This document shows, piece after piece, positions 1 through 8,404 of a stretch of DNA of 8,626 nucleotides. How positions within the stretch are numbered: position 1 is the first letter of the stretch; the number at the start of each line of letters is the position of its first letter. A model generated the notes under the pieces. The model did not search any database, had not been told where the DNA came from, and saw only the letters and a list, made by a program, of their open reading frames with translations. The translations under genes were made by a program, and so were the position numbers. Location of the stretch: NCBI GenBank assembly GCA_023264755.1, contig JAHFVB010000192.1, positions 1 to 8,626 of the forward strand. The letters are read 5' to 3'. This stretch comes from Mycobacterium sp. (GTDB lineage Bacteria > Actinomycetota > Actinomycetes > Mycobacteriales > Mycobacteriaceae).

Positions 1-22
1 CCGGCATCGTGAACTCGATCAT
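1..22 (-). CDS. E2 lipoyl acyltransferase of the dehydrogenase complex, N-terminal fragment
   Basis: Only seven codons lie inside the window, reading MIEFTMP from an ATG at position 22. This matches the usual opening of the lipoyl domain of dihydrolipoamide acyltransferases (E2). E2 carries the acyl group from E1 to CoA and forms the core of the 2-oxoacid/acetoin dehydrogenase complex. The ATG overlaps the TGA of the E1 beta gene in an ATGA arrangement, so the two are probably translationally coupled. A GGAG ribosome-binding site lies 7 bases upstream. The call rests on the short peptide plus the E1 alpha-E1 beta-E2 gene order normal for these complexes; the rest of the gene lies outside the window. 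Confidence 0.7.
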
Positions 23-999
23 CGCTGGTCTCCGAACAGCGCTCGCACTGCCGCGACGATCTTGTCCTGCTGTGGCAGCGCCGCGACCTCCAGGTGCTTG
101 GCGTAGGGCATCGGCACCTCGGCGCTACACACCCTGGCGATGGGGGCATCGAGGTCGAAGAAGGCGTGCTCGACGAGCTGGGCACTGACTTCGGCCGCCA
201 AACTTCCCGTCCGCCAACCCTCGTCGACCACGACCGCACGATGCGTGCGGCGTACCGACGCGACGAACGTCTCGGTATCCAGGGGCCGCAGCGAGCGCAG
301 GTCGACCACTTCGCACTCGATGCCGGCCTGGGCCAGCTCGTCGGCCGCATCGAGGGCCTTTGGTAGGCAGCCTCCGTAGGTGATGACGGTGACGTCGGAC
401 CCGCTGCGCCGGATCGCTGCCCGTGAAATGTTCTGCGGGGTAAGCGATTCGACGTCCGCAGTGGAGTTGTAGAGCTGAACGTGCTCGAAGATGACCACTG
501 GGTCCGGGTCGGCCAGCGCAGTGACCAGCATGCCGTAGGCGTCTTCCACCGTCGCGGGCGCAACCACCTTGATGCCGGGGATGTGCGCATACCAACCCTC
601 GAGGCTGTGCGAGTGCTGCGCGGCCAACTGCCGGCCCGCTCCGGTCGCCATCCGCACCACCAGCGGCACCGAGAACTGTCCACCGGACATGTGCCGCAAG
701 GCCGCTGCGGTGTTGACGAGCTGGTCCAGGGCCAGCAGGCTGAAGTTGACCGTCATCACCTCGACGATGGGCCGCAATCCGCCAAGTGCGGCCCCGATTC
801 CGATACCCACGAAGCCCAGCTCCGAGAGCGGGGTGTCGCGCACCCGTTCCGGCCCGAACTCCTGCAACAGGCCCTTGGTCACCGCGTAGGTGCCACCGTA
901 GGCGCCGACGTCCTCGCCCATCAGCACCACTCGCGGGTCGGCGAGCAAGGCGTCCCGGATCGAATCGTGTACCGCCGTGCGGTATGCCGTCTTGCTCAT
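19..999 (-). CDS. 2-oxoacid/acetoin dehydrogenase E1 component, beta subunit
   Basis: A 326-aa protein, the normal length for a separate E1 beta chain. With E1 alpha it forms the thiamine-diphosphate-dependent alpha2beta2 decarboxylase/lyase that reductively acylates the lipoyl group of E2. Visible family marks are GEDVG at residues 28-32, the PLSE segment ending at Glu60 (the glutamate expected to activate the thiazolium ring), and the histidine-containing loop [19 protein letters not shown] around 128-146, followed by the transketolase C-terminal domain. The ATG at 999 was chosen because the protein begins [13 protein letters not shown], a typical E1 beta start, and a GAGG Shine-Dalgarno lies 7 bases upstream. 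The same frame stays open further upstream, but that stretch only shadows E1 alpha. The start overlaps the E1 alpha stop by 4 bp. Acetoin is the preferred substrate from context; pyruvate or branched-chain oxoacids remain possible. Confidence 0.93.
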
Positions 1000-1972
1000 C
1001 GGACCACCTCGGCCGACGCGGGTGTCATCACGTCCCGGGTCAGGTCCTCCACGGGCTCCCACGTCCCCGCCTCGGCGTAGGCCACCGCATCGGCGATTTC
1101 CTCCTCGGCGGCGCGGCGGATCGCGGCGACGTCGTCGTCGGTCAGCACTCCTGCGGCCTTGCCCCGCTCGGTGAAGCTGCGGATCGGATCGCGTTCGCGC
1201 CAATGCTCGACTTCGGCCTTTTCGCGGTACAACTCGGGATCGAACATCGAATGCGGGCGGAAGCGGTAGGTGCGGAACTCCAGGAAGAACGGGCCACCGC
1301 CGTTGCGGACCTGGTAGGCCCCCTCTTGGGCGGCGGCCTGGCAGGCGAGCACGTCCATGCCGTCCACTGCCAGCGCCGGTATCCGGTAAGACTCCGCCTT
1401 CGCGGTCATGTCGGTTTGCGCCTGCTCGACCGTGATCGCCGTGCCCATCGCGTAAAGGTTGTTCTCGCAACAGAACAGCACCGGCAGCTGCCAGAGCTTG
1501 GCGAGGTTCATCGACTCGTGGAAGGCCCCCTCTGCGACGGCGCCTTCGCCGAAGTAGCAGGCGGTGACCCGCGGGGTGCCGAGCTGTTTGTCGGCCAGCG
1601 CCAAACCGGCTGCCAGCGGCAGGCCGCCACCGACGATCGCGTTGCCGCCGTAGAACCGGGTACGTGCATCGAAGAGGTGCATCGAGCCGCCGCGTCCGCG
1701 CGAGCAGCCCTCCTGCTTGCCGAACATCTCGGCCATGATCTTGGTCATCGGGACGCCCCGCAGCAGGGCGTGCGCGTGATCGCGGTAGGTGGCCACCACC
1801 GCGTCCTCGGCCTCCAGCACCCGCAGCGAACCAGCCGCCACCGCCTCCTCACCCACGTAGAGATGCAGGAATCCGCGGATCTTGGCCGCGCTGTACAACT
1901 CGGCGCACTTCTCCTCCATCAGCCGCACCCGCACCATGTCGGACAGCAGCAGTGCCGCCAGCTCACGGTCCA

Positions 1973-1976
<4 letters not shown>
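996..1976 (-). CDS. 2-oxoacid/acetoin dehydrogenase E1 component, alpha subunit
   Basis: A 326-aa thiamine-diphosphate-binding subunit, partner of E1 beta. The family landmarks are [11 protein letters not shown] at 64-74, the thiamine-diphosphate/metal motif from GEGAVAEG (143-150) to the ENN at 171-173, and a loop [12 protein letters not shown] around 240-251 matching the phosphorylation-loop region of pyruvate dehydrogenase E1 alpha. The first motif reads GEG where the family normally has GDG, a conservative Asp-to-Glu change at a metal ligand. Start choice: the GTG at 1976 lies 7 bases after a strong AAGGAGGTGA Shine-Dalgarno and overlaps the synthetase stop by 4 bp (GTGA). An ATG one codon later, at 1973, is a near-equal alternative. 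Its stop overlaps the E1 beta ATG. It fits the AcoA group in context, but sequence alone does not fix the substrate. Confidence 0.92.
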
Positions 1977-3850
<1,874 letters not shown>

Positions 3851-3855
3851 GATGA

Positions 3856-3864
3856 CTCCTCTCC
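3856..3864 (-). promoter_or_regulatory. Shine-Dalgarno supporting the GTG start of the acetyl-CoA synthetase
   Basis: On the minus strand the bases read GGAGAGGAG, followed by TCATC and then GTG. This is the best ribosome-binding site near the beginning of the gene and favours initiation at 3850. The ATG at 3883 is preceded only by a GGAAAA-like sequence. If translation starts at 3883, this site would simply lie inside the coding region. Confidence 0.55.
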
Positions 3865-3957
3865 GGACGGGCGATTGAGCCATCGTTTTCCAGCCGCCGG
3901 GACGACGCTAGAGACCAAGGTCACAACACCGCCCTACCGATGCCGAAAGTCCTCGCC

Positions 3958-3979
3958 CACAGGCCCGATCGGCCCTGTG
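3958..3979. promoter_or_regulatory. 22-bp near-perfect palindrome in the divergent intergenic region
   Basis: The left arm CACAGGcCCGA and the right arm TCGGcCCTGTG are complementary at 10 of 11 pairs, centred on CGATCG. It lies between the leftward acetyl-CoA synthetase operon and the rightward F420-type reductase gene, 31 bases upstream of the latter's ATG. The length and position suit the operator of a dimeric regulator controlling one or both directions. No T-run follows and there is essentially no loop, so a terminator is less likely. No regulator gene is visible nearby, so the binding protein is unknown. Confidence 0.45.
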
Positions 3980-4010
3980 CGACGGGCCGCCAGGAGACCA
4001 ACATCAGGCC

Positions 4011-4463
4011 ATGACCAACCACACCATCAGTCCGGCGAAATCCGCGCTACGGACGTTCAACAAGCACGTACTGAACCCAGCCATGCTGCTGTTGGCTGGG
4101 CGCAAGCATTGGTATGCAGGAGTCATCCGCCATACCGGACGACGAACCGGCAAGGCCTACGCCACTCCCGTCGTGGCCGAACAGGTGGCCGACGGCGTCA
4201 TCGTCCCGCTGCCCTATGGCACGGATGTCGACTGGCTCCGCAACGCACTCGCGGCCGGCAAGGCCTCGATGACCGTCGCAGGACAGTCGTTCGACGTCGT
4301 CGATCCGCGAATCATCGATGCCAAGGCCGCCGCCGAGCAGCTGTCCGCCCGTCGCCGCCGCGAGTTCGCCCGGTTCGGCATCGACCGCTTCGTCAAGTTC
4401 GGGCTGGTGACCGACTCCGACGCCGAACACCGCGGCCCCGCCAACACCGAACCCCAATCCTGA
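4011..4463 (+). CDS. nitroreductase-family deazaflavin (F420)-dependent oxidoreductase
   Basis: A 150-aa protein resembling the small split-beta-barrel deazaflavin-dependent reductases related to Ddn. Such enzymes use reduced coenzyme F420 to reduce quinones, nitro compounds or other substrates. Visible marks are an N-terminal helix rich in aliphatic residues (NPAMLLLAGRKHWYAG, about 22-37), the basic turn HTGRRTGK (41-48) characteristic of F420 phosphate contact in the family, and a barrel strand DGVIVPLPYG (61-70) followed by WLRNALAAG. It lacks the SKGG...HP-WY-NL stretch of canonical Ddn, so substrate and subgroup are uncertain. The spacing of AGGAG (3992-3996) to the ATG is long, at 14 bases, so initiation is either weak or uses a later AGG. 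It is divergent from the synthetase operon and precedes hspX, possibly as a separate transcript. Confidence 0.78.
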   Translation: MTNHTISPAKSALRTFNKHVLNPAMLLLAGRKHWYAGVIRHTGRRTGKAYATPVVAEQVADGVIVPLPYGTDVDWLRNALAAGKASMTVAGQSFDVVDPRIIDAKAAAEQLSARRRREFARFGIDRFVKFGLVTDSDAEHRGPANTEPQS

Positions 4464-4577
4464 CTCAGCGCTCAGCTCTGGAAGCCGGGTTCACCGCCAA
4501 TACGACTATCCGCCAGTCGGTCTCATCCACCGTCAGCGAGCGACGGCCGCCAGTCGCGCGGACGAACGACCTCCGGT
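4464..4577. other. intergenic stretch upstream of the DosR-like box
   Basis: This holds no convincing gene. Two small structures are visible: a hairpin CCGTC-7-GACGG (4530-4546), and CGACC-TCC-GGTCG (4567-4579) abutting the DosR-like box. The nonamer CGCCAGTCG occurs twice, at 4511 and 4548. None is strong enough to assign a function, although the hairpins could slow read-through from the preceding gene. Confidence 0.35.
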
Positions 4578-4597
4578 CGGGGGACTTCCGTCCCTAG
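4578..4597. promoter_or_regulatory. DosR (DevR)-like binding box upstream of hspX
   Basis: The 20 bases CGGGGGACTTCCGTCCCTAG match the mycobacterial DosR consensus TTSGGGACTWWAGTCCCSAA at 14 positions, including GGGACT in one half and GTCCC in the other. It lies 76 bases before the hspX ATG, in the only sizeable gap on that side. In M. tuberculosis hspX is a strongly DosR-induced gene with boxes in this kind of position, so hypoxia or nitric-oxide induction is expected here too. Binding itself is inferred. Confidence 0.7.
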
Positions 4598-4660
4598 TGA
4601 GCGCCGGACGGCCGGTGATCGGATTGCGATGGTCATCAGTACCAAACCAACATCAAGCCA

Positions 4661-4666
4661 AAGGAG
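4661..4666 (+). promoter_or_regulatory. ribosome-binding site fixing the hspX start
   Basis: AAGGAG lies 7 bases before the ATG at 4674. The in-frame ATG at 4629 has no comparable site and would add 15 residues not expected in HspX proteins, so 4674 is preferred. Confidence 0.8.
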
Positions 4667-4673
4667 CACGATC

Positions 4674-5105
4674 ATGCCCGATGTCGCTGTGCAACAACAT
4701 CATCGACCGTCCTGGCCCGCGATATCCGAGTTCTTCTCGAGCCTCCCGTCGTGGGGCAACCTGCGCCCGATGTTCGACGGCCACCCCATCAAGGTCGAAG
4801 ACAAGGTCGAGGACGGCAAGTACGAACTGCAGGCAGAGCTTCCGGGAGTGGACCCTAGCAAGGACGTCGACGTGACCGTCCGCGACGGGATCCTGACCAT
4901 CAAGGCCGAGCGGAGCGAGAAGAAGGATTCGAATGGACGCTCGGAGTTCACCTACGGTTCGTTCAGCCGTTCGGTGACCCTTCCGGCCGGGGCTGACGAA
5001 GACCACATCAAGGCCAGCTACGACAAGGGCATTCTGATCGTGTCGGTGCCGCTGACGGAGTCCGAGGTCCCCGCCAAGCACGTCGCGATCGAGTCGTCGA
5101 ACTGA
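4674..5105 (+). CDS. hspX: small heat-shock protein, HspX/alpha-crystallin (Acr) orthologue
   Basis: A 143-aa Hsp20-family chaperone, nearly the same length as the 144-aa M. tuberculosis HspX as I recall it. Such proteins form oligomers that hold unfolding proteins in an ATP-independent way and accumulate in non-growing hypoxic cells. The alpha-crystallin domain spans about residues 37-130. Strongly HspX-like stretches are AELPGVDPSKDVDV (54-67), VRDGILTIKAER (69-80), GRSEFTYGSF (88-97), GADEDHIKASYDKGIL (106-121) and the end HVAIESSN. The C-terminal tail reads V-A-I in place of the usual I-x-I contact motif, a mild variation. An upstream DosR-like box predicts induction by hypoxia or nitric oxide. 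The neighbouring redox genes could be part of the same stress response, but each seems to have its own upstream signals. Confidence 0.95.
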   Translation: MPDVAVQQHHRPSWPAISEFFSSLPSWGNLRPMFDGHPIKVEDKVEDGKYELQAELPGVDPSKDVDVTVRDGILTIKAERSEKKDSNGRSEFTYGSFSRSVTLPAGADEDHIKASYDKGILIVSVPLTESEVPAKHVAIESSN

Positions 5106-5136
5106 CCCGATCCGCGGCCCCCGGAGCCTCGTCGAC

Positions 5137-5169
5137 GGTCAGCCTGGTGGGCGACCGCACGCGCTGACC
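5137..5169. repeat. inverted repeat GGTCAGC-N19-GCTGACC
   Basis: Two perfect 7-base arms (5137-5143 and 5163-5169) are separated by 19 bases between hspX and the response-regulator flavoprotein gene. The centre is about 52 bases before the predicted transcription start of that gene, so it may be an activator or repressor site. It might instead be a weak rho-independent-like hairpin ending the hspX mRNA, but no T-run follows; A residues do. Confidence 0.4.
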
Positions 5170-5177
5170 AAAAACCG

Positions 5178-5191
5178 GCTGGACGGCCAGC
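5178..5191. repeat. short dyad GCTGG-ACGG-CCAGC immediately upstream of the -10 element
   Basis: Perfect 5-base arms around a 4-base spacer end one base before the CATAAT element. It occupies the space between the expected -35 and -10 regions, where a bound protein would affect polymerase directly. Short GC dyads are common in such DNA, so this is only a candidate operator. Confidence 0.3.
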
Positions 5192-5192
5192 G

Positions 5193-5198
5193 CATAAT
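5193..5198 (+). promoter_or_regulatory. -10 promoter element of a probable leaderless transcript
   Basis: CATAAT is an AT-rich hexamer in GC-rich surroundings and matches the mycobacterial -10 consensus TANNNT/TATAAT at five of six positions. Transcription would begin about 7 bases later, near 5204-5207, which is exactly at the GTG/ATG start of the next gene. No properly spaced Shine-Dalgarno precedes that gene, which agrees with leaderless initiation, common in mycobacteria. No clear -35 was seen. Confidence 0.55.
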
Positions 5199-5206
5199 TG
5201 AGGGTG

Positions 5207-6904
5207 ATGACTGGATCAGCGCCCGAGCCACGTAAACCCGCCATACTGACCGTCGACGACGACCCCGCCGTGTCGCGTGCAGTTGCCCGCGACCTGCGCC
5301 GCCATTACGGGGAGCGCTACCGCATCGTCCGCGCCGAATCAGGGCCCGACGCGCTTGCCGCCATCAAGGAGCTCAAGCTCCGCGGCGAGACCGTCGCCGT
5401 CTTCGTCGCCGACTACCGGATGCCCCAGATGAGTGGCATCGAATTCCTCGAAGCGGCGATGGACATCTTCCCGCTGGCCCGTCGGGTACTGCTGACGGCC
5501 TATGCCGACGTGCACGCCGCCATCGACGCCATCAACGTCGTCGACTTGGACAAGTACCTGCAGAAGCCGTGGGATCCGCCCGAGGAGAAGCTCTATCCCG
5601 TCATCGACGAGCTCCTCGAGGAGTGGCACGCCACCGGCGACCGCGCCATCCCCTACACCAAGGTGATCGGTCACCGCTGGAACCCGCGGTCCTGGGAGGT
5701 CCGCCAGTTCCTGGCCCGCAATCAGCATTCCTTCCGTTCGTTCATGGCCGACGAGCCGAAGGGCATGCAACTGCTCGAAGCCGCCGGACTCGACGGCATG
5801 CAGCTGCCGGTGGTGATCACGGAGAAGGGCGAGTCCCTCGTCGAGCCGAGCAACGCCGAGCTCGCCGCGATGCTCGGGCTGTCCACCGAACCGTCGCTGC
5901 AGATGTACGACCTCGCCGTCATCGGCGGCGGCCCGGCCGGCCTGGCGGCCGCGGTGTACGGCGCGTCCGAGGGGCTGGAGACCGTGCTCGTCGAACGCAC
6001 GACGACCGGCGGGCAGGCGGGCCGCAGTTCCCGAATCGAGAACTACCTCGGGTTCGAGAACGGGGTGTCGGGGGCCGTGCTGACCACGGCCGCCCGGCGG
6101 CAGGCCGAACGGTTCGGCGCCGAGGTCATCACCACGCGGCAGGTGGTCAAACTGCACGTCGGGGATAGCGCGCCCACCATCGAGTTCGAGGACGGCAGCA
6201 CCATCGGAGCGCGCTCGGTCATCCTGGCCACCGGCGTCGAGTACCGCCCGCTTCGGGTCAACGGCTGCTGGCAGAACCCCGATGACCCGGACGGCAACGA
6301 CTACACCGATCGCGGCGTCTACTACGGCGCATCGGTCTCGCAGGCCTCGGAGTGCAAGGGTGAGGACGTCTACATCGTCGGCGGCGCCAACTCCGCCGGA
6401 CAGGCCGCGATGTTCATGTCGAAGGAAGCCAACTCGGTGACGCTGCTGGTCCGCGGCCCGTCACTGGAAGCCTCGATGTCGCACTACCTGATCCAGCAGA
6501 TCGAACAGAATCCGAAGATCCACGTCAGGACCTGCACCGAGGTCGTAGACACCTGCGGCGAGGACGGCCACCTGTCCGCCCTGTGGCTGGAGGACAAGCG
6601 CACCGGAGAACGCGAGCAGGTCGCCTGCGGGCGGATGTGTTGTTTCATCGGCGCGACGCCGCGCACCGAGTGGCTCGACGGCGACCTGGCTCTGGACGAC
6701 CACGGATTCATCCTTGCGGGTCCGGATCTCAAGGACGTCTGCGGCTGGAGCCGGGACAGGCCGCCGCATCACTTGGAAACAAGTGTGCCCGGTGTGTTTG
6801 TTGCAGGAGACGTGCGTGCCCAATCCGCGAAGCGGGTGGCGGCTGCCGTCGGCGAGGGATCGATGGCAGTGATGCTGGTACACCGCTACCTGGCCGAAGC
6901 GTGA
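5207..6904 (+). CDS. response-regulator receiver domain fused to a thioredoxin-reductase-like flavoprotein
   Basis: A 565-aa three-part protein. Residues 11-140 are a complete receiver domain: acidic pair D17/D18, phospho-acceptor D69 in VADYRMP, T97 and K120 (QKPWD). Residues about 150-225 resemble a glutaredoxin/thioredoxin fold with a LPVV cis-proline-like turn (200-203) but have no cysteine where CxxC belongs (HRWNPRSW). Residues 234-565 are a two-dinucleotide-domain flavoprotein: FAD motif VIGGGPAG (238-245), GGQAG...IENYLGF, NADPH motif VGGANSAG (391-398) and the terminal FAD motif VFVAGD (530-535). The CATC motif of true thioredoxin reductases is replaced by YYGASVSQASEC (372-383). It is therefore probably an NAD(P)H-dependent flavin oxidoreductase rather than a classical thioredoxin reductase, and its electron acceptor is unknown. 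ATG 5207 was chosen over TTG 5198, which lies within the -10 element. It is followed 36 bp later by a histidine kinase, its likely phosphodonor. Confidence 0.9.
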   Translation: MTGSAPEPRKPAILTVDDDPAVSRAVARDLRRHYGERYRIVRAESGPDALAAIKELKLRGETVAVFVADYRMPQMSGIEFLEAAMDIFPLARRVLLTAYADVHAAIDAINVVDLDKYLQKPWDPPEEKLYPVIDELLEEWHATGDRAIPYTKVIGHRWNPRSWEVRQFLARNQHSFRSFMADEPKGMQLLEAAGLDGMQLPVVITEKGESLVEPSNAELAAMLGLSTEPSLQMYDLAVIGGGPAGLAAAVYGASEGLETVLVERTTTGGQAGRSSRIENYLGFENGVSGAVLTTAARRQAERFGAEVITTRQVVKLHVGDSAPTIEFEDGSTIGARSVILATGVEYRPLRVNGCWQNPDDPDGNDYTDRGVYYGASVSQASECKGEDVYIVGGANSAGQAAMFMSKEANSVTLLVRGPSLEASMSHYLIQQIEQNPKIHVRTCTEVVDTCGEDGHLSALWLEDKRTGEREQVACGRMCCFIGATPRTEWLDGDLALDDHGFILAGPDLKDVCGWSRDRPPHHLETSVPGVFVAGDVRAQSAKRVAAAVGEGSMAVMLVHRYLAEA

Positions 6905-6928
6905 TCGCCGACGTCCGGCGTGGCCGAG

Positions 6929-6934
6929 AAAGGA
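6929..6934 (+). promoter_or_regulatory. ribosome-binding site for the histidine kinase
   Basis: AAAGGA lies 6 bases before the ATG at 6941 and supports that start over the in-frame GTG at 6920, which has no comparable site. Confidence 0.65.
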
Positions 6935-6940
6935 AGCCCA

Positions 6941-8404
6941 ATGGGTGAGACCTGCCTGCCCGACGAACTCCGAACACTCTTCCTGTTCGAGAAGTTGACC
7001 GACCGCCAGCTGCAGAAGCTGTGCGAACACGGGCACCTGGCCCGCTTCGACCCGGGGCCGATCTGTGTCGAGGGCGAAGCGGCGACGTGCTTCTACGTGC
7101 TCATCGAGGGCGAGCTCGCCATGTCGAAGCGCTCCGGCGGTGCGGACATCGAGACCACCCGGACCTCGCAGCGCGGGGTCTACTGCGGGGCCTGGAGCGC
7201 CTACGTCGACGGCGTGCCGCAGGTCTACGAATCGTCCGTGCGGGTCACGAAGCCGTCGAAGTTCTTCGTGCTCGACGCGGCGGCCTTCGGCGACTTCGTG
7301 AAGGACGAGTTCCCAATGGCGGTCCACCTGCTCGAGGGCCTCAAGGTCGGCGGGCTGCGGCAGCGCCAGATCATCGACCAGCGGGAGAAGCTGCTGGCCC
7401 TCGGACAACTGTCGGCGGGGCTGACCCATCAGCTCAACAATCCCGCCGCGGCGGCTGCGCGCGCCGTCTCCGATCTGCGCGAGAAGGTGGCCGGGATGCG
7501 CCACAAGTTGGCGATGCTGGCCGACGGCAAGTTCACCCCCGAGGGGTTGCGGGTGCTGGTGACCATCCAGGAAGAGGTGGCCGAGCAGGTCGCCAAGAAC
7601 AAGGCCCAGGAACTCACCGCACTCGAGGCCTCCGATCGCGAGGACACGATCGGAGACTGGCTGGAGGATCACGCGATCGTCGGGGCCTGGGACTACGCGC
7701 CGACGTTCGTCGAGGCGGGTCTGGATACCGACTGGCTGGAGCGCATCTCCTCCTCCATCGACGAGGCGGACGCCTCGGCCTCGCTACAAGGGGCCATCGG
7801 CTGGCTGAAGTACACCATCGACACCGAGCTGATGATGAACCAGATCGCCGAGGCCAGCAGTCGCATCTCGGCGCTGCTCGCCGGAGCCAAGCAGTACTCG
7901 CAGATGGACCGCGCGCCCTATCAGAGCGCGAACGTCCACGAGCTGCTGCGCAGCACGATCATGATGTTCGGCGAGAAGCTGGGCAAGGACAAGGGTGTCA
8001 AGCTGGTCAAGGAATGTGACATGTCCTTGCCCGAAATTCAGTGCTACCCAGGCGATCTCAACCAGGTGTGGACCAACATCATCGACAACGCCATCCAGGC
8101 GATGGATGGTCACGGCACCCTGACCATCCGCACCTCGGCAGTCGGCGAGGACGCCATCAAGGTCGAGATCTGCGACGACGGCCCCGGCATTCCGCAGGAC
8201 ATCGTCGACCGCATCTTCACGCCGTTCTTCACCACCAAACCGTTCGGCGAGGGCACCGGCCTCGGCTTGGATCTGGCCTGGCGCATCATCGCGCAGAAAC
8301 ACCACGGCAACGTCCGCGTCGAGTCGAAGCCCGGCGACACCCGGTTCATCATCGTGCTCCCGTTGGTCGCCCCGAAGCCGGAGGAGACCCCGGTCGACTC
8401 CTAG
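6941..8404 (+). CDS. soluble histidine kinase with N-terminal cyclic-nucleotide-binding-like domain
   Basis: A 487-aa protein with no membrane segment. Residues about 12-130 have the beta-roll pattern of a cNMP-binding/CRP-type domain (FDPGPICVEGEAATCFYVLIEGEL), but the FGE...PRxA phosphate-binding cassette is absent, replaced by YCGAWSAYVDG. Five cysteines fall within the first 82 residues. The H-box LSAGLTHQLNNP places the phospho-acceptor at H163, followed by Gln instead of the usual Glu/Asp. The catalytic domain is complete: N-box NIIDNAIQAM (379-388), DDGPGI (412-417), FTPFFTTK (426-433) and GEGTGLGL (436-443). About 216 residues separate H163 from the N-box, roughly twice the usual distance, because of a helical insert at about 180-300. 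It lies 36 bp after the receiver-flavoprotein gene, probably in one operon, and likely phosphorylates its D69. The stimulus is unknown; redox or ligand sensing by the N-terminal domain is inference. Confidence 0.9.
   Translation: MGETCLPDELRTLFLFEKLTDRQLQKLCEHGHLARFDPGPICVEGEAATCFYVLIEGELAMSKRSGGADIETTRTSQRGVYCGAWSAYVDGVPQVYESSVRVTKPSKFFVLDAAAFGDFVKDEFPMAVHLLEGLKVGGLRQRQIIDQREKLLALGQLSAGLTHQLNNPAAAAARAVSDLREKVAGMRHKLAMLADGKFTPEGLRVLVTIQEEVAEQVAKNKAQELTALEASDREDTIGDWLEDHAIVGAWDYAPTFVEAGLDTDWLERISSSIDEADASASLQGAIGWLKYTIDTELMMNQIAEASSRISALLAGAKQYSQMDRAPYQSANVHELLRSTIMMFGEKLGKDKGVKLVKECDMSLPEIQCYPGDLNQVWTNIIDNAIQAMDGHGTLTIRTSAVGEDAIKVEICDDGPGIPQDIVDRIFTPFFTTKPFGEGTGLGLDLAWRIIAQKHHGNVRVESKPGDTRFIIVLPLVAPKPEETPVDS

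Follow-up and report, generated by a model that had tools for sequence, protein, structure and literature searches.

Most two-component systems have transcription, second messengers or motility as their outputs, and the response regulators in which the receiver instead drives an enzyme include CheB and the GGDEF, EAL and HD-GYP regulators. The fusion of a receiver to thioredoxin reductase is itself already known in outline, since a Mycobacterium-like combination of the two is named in a census of archaeal two-component systems (PMC5847659), which is the only account of such fusions found in the open-access literature. The available part of that census makes no mention of a partner kinase, a missing CxxC motif, a glutaredoxin-derived middle domain or a wiring in which a cyclic nucleotide-binding (CNB) domain is fused directly to the flavoprotein, all of which mark the family described here. 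The subject of this work is a locus in a stretch of 8,626 nucleotides from Mycobacterium sp. (contig JAHFVB010000192.1; the whole stretch is referred to as the window), in which a gene, A, joins a receiver to a flavoprotein with sites for flavin adenine dinucleotide (FAD) and NAD(P)H, and is followed by a histidine kinase gene, B. As in the enzyme-output regulators above, the receiver of A is proposed to drive an enzyme, the difference being that the output is an NAD(P)H-dependent flavoprotein. No account of the A–B pair, of its double cysteine loss or of the exchange of sensors set out below was found in the open-access literature, subscription journals being mostly outside the scope of that search; the word ‘thioredoxin’ was not found in the text of PMC4558063, and the available parts of PMC8945050 and PMC9025218 do not describe the A–B family.

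The best reading of the locus is that phosphorylation of Asp69 of A would act on the flavoprotein, because neither gene carries a DNA-binding output, the adjacency of the two genes is conserved, they co-occur across genomes, and the receiver residues are kept where the kinase is present. More specifically, judging from sequence, the balance tips towards B phosphorylating Asp69 and thereby likely switching an electron flow that starts at NAD(P)H, passes through FAD and ends at an acceptor other than a CxxC-type disulfide; we infer that phosphorylation would switch catalysis directly. If true, a receiver that gates a flavoenzyme ties a sensed signal to electron flow, bypassing gene expression. 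The features of gene A and of the gap that follows it are:

5207..6904, + strand: gene A, consisting of receiver, cysteine-free glutaredoxin-like domain and thioredoxin reductase (TrxR)-like FAD/NAD(P)H flavoprotein (open reading frame, Pfam, AlphaFold2 model)
5243..5581, + strand: receiver domain, residues 13-125 (Response_reg, 48.8 bits; D17-19, T97, K120)
5411..5413, + strand: codon of Asp69, the predicted phospho-acceptor (Asp in 119/120 unique kinase-adjacent members, with 1 gap)
5654..5872, + strand: glutaredoxin-derived domain without Cys, residues 150-222 (fold order in the model; PF00462 matches in relatives)
5900..6901, + strand: TrxR-like FAD/NAD(P)H domain, residues 232-565
6326..6340, + strand: site of the missing CxxC, G374-S378, C-A-T-C in the genome's own TrxB (alignment with that TrxB, L185)
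6380..6409, + strand: NAD(P)H-site motif GGANSAGQAA, residues 392-401 (G392 in 158/158, S396 in 157/158, A397 in 158/158 members)
6905..6940, + strand: gap of 36 bp between A and B, with an AGGA ribosome-type site at 6931 (sequence)

The make-up of the pair proposed in the earlier note is borne out on three counts. Gene A, which encodes 565 residues from an ATG at 5207 to a stop at 6904, does join an intact receiver to an FAD/NAD(P)H flavoprotein, as seen from the open reading frame, the Pfam matches (including Pyr_redox_2 at 111.4 bits) and the residues themselves; the receiver signature is complete, with the acidic pocket D17/D18/D19, the phospho-acceptor D69, T97 at the Thr/Ser position and the lysine K120. 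An intact histidine kinase does indeed follow 36 bp later, with its open reading frame, HATPase_c match and kinase boxes all in place, and no DNA-binding domain appears in either gene in a Pfam scan of A and B at E ≤ 0.01. The features of the kinase gene are:

6941..8404, + strand: gene B, CNB-like sensor histidine kinase (open reading frame, Pfam, AlphaFold2 model)
6968..7306, + strand: CNB-like sensor domain, residues 10-122, without the canonical phosphate-binding Glu/Arg (PF00027, 28.3 bits; residues)
7427..7429, + strand: codon of His163, the predicted phospho-donor, in the H box GLTHQLNNP (His in 133/133 unique kinases)
7538..7756, + strand: extra helices, residues 200-272, between the two long DHp helices (predicted model)
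7922..8365, + strand: ATP-binding catalytic domain, residues 328-475 (HATPase_c, 86.4 bits; N383, D412, G414, G440, G442)

Gene B encodes 487 residues, from an ATG at 6941 to a stop at 8404. It has H163, N383, D412, G414, G440 and G442, with the N, G1, F and G2 boxes intact, and H163, N383 and G414 are found in all 133 unique kinases of the B family. The AlphaFold2 model of B (mean pLDDT 87.7, pTM 0.61), a predicted monomer, has the two DHp helices, at 124-194 and 275-323, ahead of the ATP domain.

Conservation of the A–B adjacency, which the earlier note had put forward for checking across genomes, is upheld. In the mycobacterial loci, which are the best 80 of 581 relatives, B lies downstream of A and on the same strand in 80/80 named cases; the kinase match of L032 is split into two separate parts, and there are two tandem kinase matches in each of L074, L076, L077 and L081. 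The window lies on contig C50 of a draft genome that is closest to Mycobacterium/Mycolicibacterium. Of 148 genomes of the genus, in which the closest homologue of A is 96% identical, 104 have A and 103 have B, and every genome with B also has A; in the exception with A and no B (G283), the contig breaks off 125 bp from A, on the side where the kinase would be. In 246 genomes from across the phylum, 39 of the 42 B matches (E ≤ 1e-55) are within 6 kb of an A match. The 32 kinase-group representatives among 71 dereplicated family members likewise have the family kinase with A, the irregularities being a kinase cut by a contig end (L106), one upstream of A (L115) and one separated from A by two other genes (L175). 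In plasmid records, the kinase is directly downstream in 7 of the 9 long matches examined (there being 11 long matches in total), with pairs from Streptomyces, Tsukamurella, Deinococcus, Caballeronia, Paraburkholderia, Nostoc and Gloeothece; the exceptions are Nostoc edaphicum, where the kinase comes after two other genes, and Streptomyces NBC_01001, with no kinase in 4 kb. In Deinococcus aetherius (L173), A occupies 4992-6659 and B 6656-8056, and in Streptomyces fungicidicus (L177) A occupies 4992-6668 and B 6665-8125. The pair thus recurs in Actinomycetota, Deinococcota, Pseudomonadota and Cyanobacteriota, and this recurrence, together with the 80/80 mycobacterial loci, means that the pairing is not by chance.

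The state of the receiver can be set beside the presence of the kinase. Members with an adjacent kinase have T97 and K120 in 120/120 and D69 in 119/120 (one gap), as against D69 in 10 of the 29 receiver members without one in the alignment; L106, with its cut kinase, is counted among these 29, and as kinase-linked in the representative count. In that second count, of representatives dereplicated at 82% identity and with one row with a gap at position 69 dropped, the complete signature is present in 32/32 kinase-linked and 0/24 kinase-less members. On a 72-row tree, 2 changes are needed for the kinase-linked receiver group and 2 for the kinase-less one (shuffled means of 23.6 and 21.0, respectively). 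D69 alone changes 8 times on the tree, with all 32 kinase-linked rows retaining it, and the complete signature changes once, giving 1 independent pair and a sign test p = 1. Since it changes only once, the signature is consistent with functional coupling but is not independent proof of it, and with one independent pair on the tree no statistic for kinase presence versus receiver decay is claimed. The earlier note had held that kinase-less homologues with degenerate receivers would speak against the module; such relatives were found, but they form a tree group separate from the kinase-linked members. In this regard, the decay of receivers in the kinase-less group, where the flavoprotein stays, would suit a receiver that serves as a phosphate sink or a dimerisation handle, with the flavoprotein output unregulated. 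This is quite unlikely, given that D69, T97 and K120 are retained wherever the kinase is adjacent and that the two genes co-occur. Receiver decay in the absence of an adjacent kinase is seen in the receiver-flavoproteins of L116-L145, ten of which are Cys-free in the output domains. A receiver-flavoprotein gene interrupted by a stop codon was also seen (L137; G354 C1:2772906-2774604).

With respect to the output, the label ‘thioredoxin reductase’, which the earlier note had attached to fusions of this kind, is wrong, the CxxC being missing and both Cys pairs absent. Against TIGR01292, the equivalog profile of low-Mr thioredoxin reductases, A scores 200 bits, below the cut-off of 343.45, while TrxB of the same genome (L185) scores 413.5 bits; where TrxB has C-A-T-C, A reads G374-A-S-V-S378. 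In an alignment of TrxB with 164 unique family members (149 receiver members, 9 CNB members and 6 in which neither domain is recognised), the CxxC is absent from 149/149 receiver and 9/9 CNB members, that is, from 158/158 regulated members, and is present in 2 of the other 6, L171 and L172. Among protein-database homologues of A, moreover, it is in none of the best 120 of 8000 scored. The glycines of the FAD and NAD(P)H sites (G240, G242, G245 and G392) are kept in 158/158, and the enzyme core therefore looks maintained despite the absent CxxC. The name ‘thioredoxin reductase (NADPH)’, carried by many of the best 120 listed homologues, is suggested to be wrong for the family because of the missing cysteine pairs.

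A TrxR fold without CxxC, as in A, is also the property of the TrxR-like ferredoxin/flavodoxin-NADP+ reductases (FNRs) and the bacillithiol disulfide reductases, according to the available part of PMC10294844. Unlike these, A is without the flavin-covering C-terminal part: its profile match reaches residue 562 of 565, so including the TrxR-type last helix, the protein ends 3 residues later, and there is no FNR-type C-terminal extension with a residue stacking on FAD. The best TrxR match of A is at 1e-35 and the best FNR match at 2.3e-15. In the AlphaFold2 model of A (mean pLDDT 87.6), of which residues 230-565 were compared, the domains adopt the flavin-reducing (FR) arrangement, with a root-mean-square deviation of 1.7 to 5mh4 (FR) and 7.7 to 5mjk (flavin-oxidising, FO). 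NAD(P)H has access to the flavin in the FR form. As a suggestion only, the predicted arrangement would fit a Cys-free enzyme, for which the other form would have little use.

Two cysteines outside the lost motif need to be weighed here. C354 and C383 are present in 84/84 mycobacterial members, and A could still reduce disulfides through them in mycobacteria, or by direct flavin attack in the manner of bacillithiol disulfide reductase, itself TrxR-like and without CxxC (PMC10294844, in its available part); in Rhodococcus, trxA lies two genes before the CNB-fused member. Such retained disulfide chemistry is, in our estimation, very unlikely, as only 4 of the 74 non-mycobacterial members have both cysteines, ten members, each of them kinase-less, are Cys-free in both output domains, and the glutaredoxin-like domain is also without its Cys.

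The middle domain of A bears on the origin of this output. In the AlphaFold2 model, residues 151-222 have the element order beta-alpha-beta-alpha-beta-beta-alpha, which, with homology to L171 and L172, identifies a thioredoxin-like fold. L171 and L172 match PF00462 (E 1.5e-10 and 2.2e-12, respectively), both with an intact CPDC, and the middle domain of the family member L102 gives E 0.0014, under the family cut-off. The middle domain of A itself has no Cys, and hence no glutaredoxin CxxC/CxxS active site; indeed, at any one position of the domain, at most 8 of the 158 members linked to a receiver or CNB domain have Cys. Glutaredoxin–thioredoxin reductase fusions (L171, L172 and P0121-P0240) have the same middle domain and flavoprotein as A, and differ in that both cysteine pairs are present and that L171 and L172 are without a receiver or CNB domain. 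Among the 120 listed relatives of L171, CP.C is found in 117/120 and the TrxR cysteines (C[AVS].C) in 120/120. In a tree built from the middle domain and the flavin domain, TrxB, L171 and L172 form one group (support 100/99), to which no regulated member belongs. Most simply, a glutaredoxin–TrxR fusion would have shed both disulfide centres on coming under a receiver or CNB domain, although C354 and C383, in all 84 mycobacterial members, tell against a clean story of Cys loss.

Among the loci examined, the flavoprotein unit is found in three wirings: with a receiver and an adjacent CNB-kinase, with a receiver and no kinase, and with a CNB domain fused to it directly. The third, recorded as ‘thioredoxin-disulfide reductase’ in Deinococcus, Paraburkholderia and Rhodococcus, shares the Cys-free middle domain and flavoprotein with A, but has its sensor fused directly, with no receiver and no adjacent kinase. 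Three wirings of one flavoprotein amount to a natural experiment, from direct sensor to phosphorelay.

On the preferred reading, that phosphorylation acts on the flavoprotein, a signal at the CNB-like domain of B would change the autophosphorylation of His163, from which the phosphate would pass to Asp69 of the A receiver. The receiver would then influence how the flavoprotein opens or rotates, with the Cys-free glutaredoxin-like domain as the mechanical coupler between them, and this shift would alter how electrons pass from NAD(P)H via FAD to the acceptor. In other words, kinase and receiver would replace the direct sensor contact of the CNB-fused sister wiring by a phosphate relay. Candidate acceptors are oxygen, quinones and carrier proteins, and also the zf-UBP protein, whose gene stands beside that of many non-mycobacterial relatives.

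The direction of signalling could also be the reverse, with the flavoprotein as the sensor: the redox state of NAD(P)H/NAD(P)+ or FAD in A would alter the drain of phosphate by its receiver from B and so be reported to the kinase, the real target of the kinase being elsewhere. The loss of both redox Cys pairs with the FAD and NAD(P)H sites kept fits a binding sensor no less than an enzyme, and the numbers of kinases, three in tandem for each A in L159, L161 and L162 with unlinked extra copies in some genomes, would agree with it. Neighbouring open reading frames were clustered by single linkage, spurious frames included, and among the recurrent neighbours in the clusters listed there is no regular response regulator beside the pair; one cluster of OmpR-type regulators covers five loci, of which only L115 is kinase-linked. 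The CNB-fused wiring, moreover, has a sensor on the same flavoprotein without a kinase, which makes the flavoprotein the common output. A sensor role for the flavoprotein is thus rather unlikely. It may be noted that the three tandem CNB-kinases of L159, L161 and L162 stand beside a single receiver-flavoprotein.

Several points weigh against a phosphorylation-switched flavoenzyme. On the tree, a single event accounts for the association of the receiver residues with the kinase, which is therefore not statistically independent evidence; the lineage-specific C354 and C383 leave thiol chemistry possible in mycobacterial members; and the FR arrangement, seen in a predicted and cofactor-free model, is weak evidence. 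In the phylum-wide set, 3 of the 42 B matches are apart from A (G074, G227 and G237), and several mycobacterial genomes hold extra unlinked kinase copies. Beside the pair in mycobacteria, no acceptor gene was found among the recurrent neighbours listed.

A wider reading can be put forward only tentatively, namely that A and B belong to a widespread class of signalling systems with direct electron transfer as their output. In this class, a glutaredoxin–thioredoxin reductase relay without both of its disulfide centres would have become a gated NAD(P)H flavo-oxidoreductase. It would be wired either as a one-component system, with the CNB-like sensor fused to it, or as a two-component system, with a sensor of the same kind on the kinase and a receiver in its place. 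The dead glutaredoxin domain would be the coupling joint, and the zf-UBP protein a third partner or the acceptor.

The sensor domain of B had been taken in the earlier note as cNMP-like. That part of the assignment which concerns the fold stands, if marginally, B matching PF00027 at 28.3 bits, 0.8 bits above the cut-off of 27.5; the part that would imply ligand binding does not. In cyclic-nucleotide-binding proteins the Glu and Arg of the phosphate-binding cassette hold the cyclic phosphate. B has A84 in place of the Glu and has no Arg. The strict CNB motif is found in 3/135 related kinases and 0/13 members without a receiver, counts in which the near-canonical L110 is missed and some of the 13 receiver-less members are without a clear CNB N-terminus. 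A cyclic nucleotide is rejected as the signal for kinase B, and for B only, as the binding residues are missing; the CNB domains of L107, L108, L110 and L111 look canonical, and a cyclic nucleotide is a possible signal for some relatives of the kinase. At L139, an open reading frame with an adenylate/guanylate cyclase domain (6684-7571, − strand; PF00211) adjoins a kinase-less receiver-flavoprotein gene and is the hub of a nine-locus neighbour cluster. Between the DHp helices, the model of B has four extra helices (200-272), which are unusual and in which E234, W250 and G260 are near-invariant; judging from the predicted structure, these may confer partner specificity.

Among the neighbour clusters listed, and besides common families such as ABC ATPases, the recurrent neighbour of both the kinase-paired and the CNB-fused wiring is a zf-UBP protein, a small zinc-finger protein of the ubiquitin-hydrolase type:

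L177, 8122-8475: zf-UBP protein
L178, 8140-8490: zf-UBP protein
L183, 3274-3540: zf-UBP protein
L150, L168 and others: zf-UBP protein

Of 73 zf-UBP matches in the 246 genomes, 14 have one of the 74 top-ranked A-family places no more than 2 kb away, where 0.19 would be expected by chance within 3 kb on rough genome sizes. A zf-UBP gene is near A in 0/80 mycobacterial loci, and hence no acceptor is proposed for the window itself; the genome of the window has a zf-UBP copy away from the pair (C73:105-311; L195). In L164, a family kinase (3777-5534, − strand) has a zf-UBP domain fused at its C-terminus, and in Rhodococcus a zf-UBP gene lies between trxA and the CNB-fused member, after clpB. In Deinococcus and Nostoc (L173, L175 and L180), another recurring gene close to the pair is that for ‘low temperature requirement protein A’.

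Upstream of A, the window holds an Hsp20 gene, starting at ATG 4629 or, more likely, 4674 and ending at 5105. The earlier note had counted the position beside hspX as part of the module, but this neighbourhood is incidental and is rejected as a functional link, Hsp20 being near A in only 2 of the 80 mycobacterial loci (L058 and L074), 7 of which hold less than 5 kb of upstream sequence. A DosR-type palindrome, GGGACTTCCGTCCC, lies at 4581-4594, upstream of the Hsp20 gene only and not of A. With what we take to be the consensus of the DosR-type box, the best scores before A in the 80 mycobacterial loci are much the same as those of 1000 random pieces of the same loci, L067 being the exception with a score of 15 against a control maximum of 14. 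Control of A by DosR and hypoxia is rejected on these grounds, the box standing only before Hsp20 and the scores before A resembling the random control. Further upstream, an acetate-CoA ligase gene and then pyruvate dehydrogenase E1 alpha- and beta-type genes occupy 19-3883 of the window on the minus strand, adjoined by a deazaflavin-type nitroreductase-family gene at 4011-4463.

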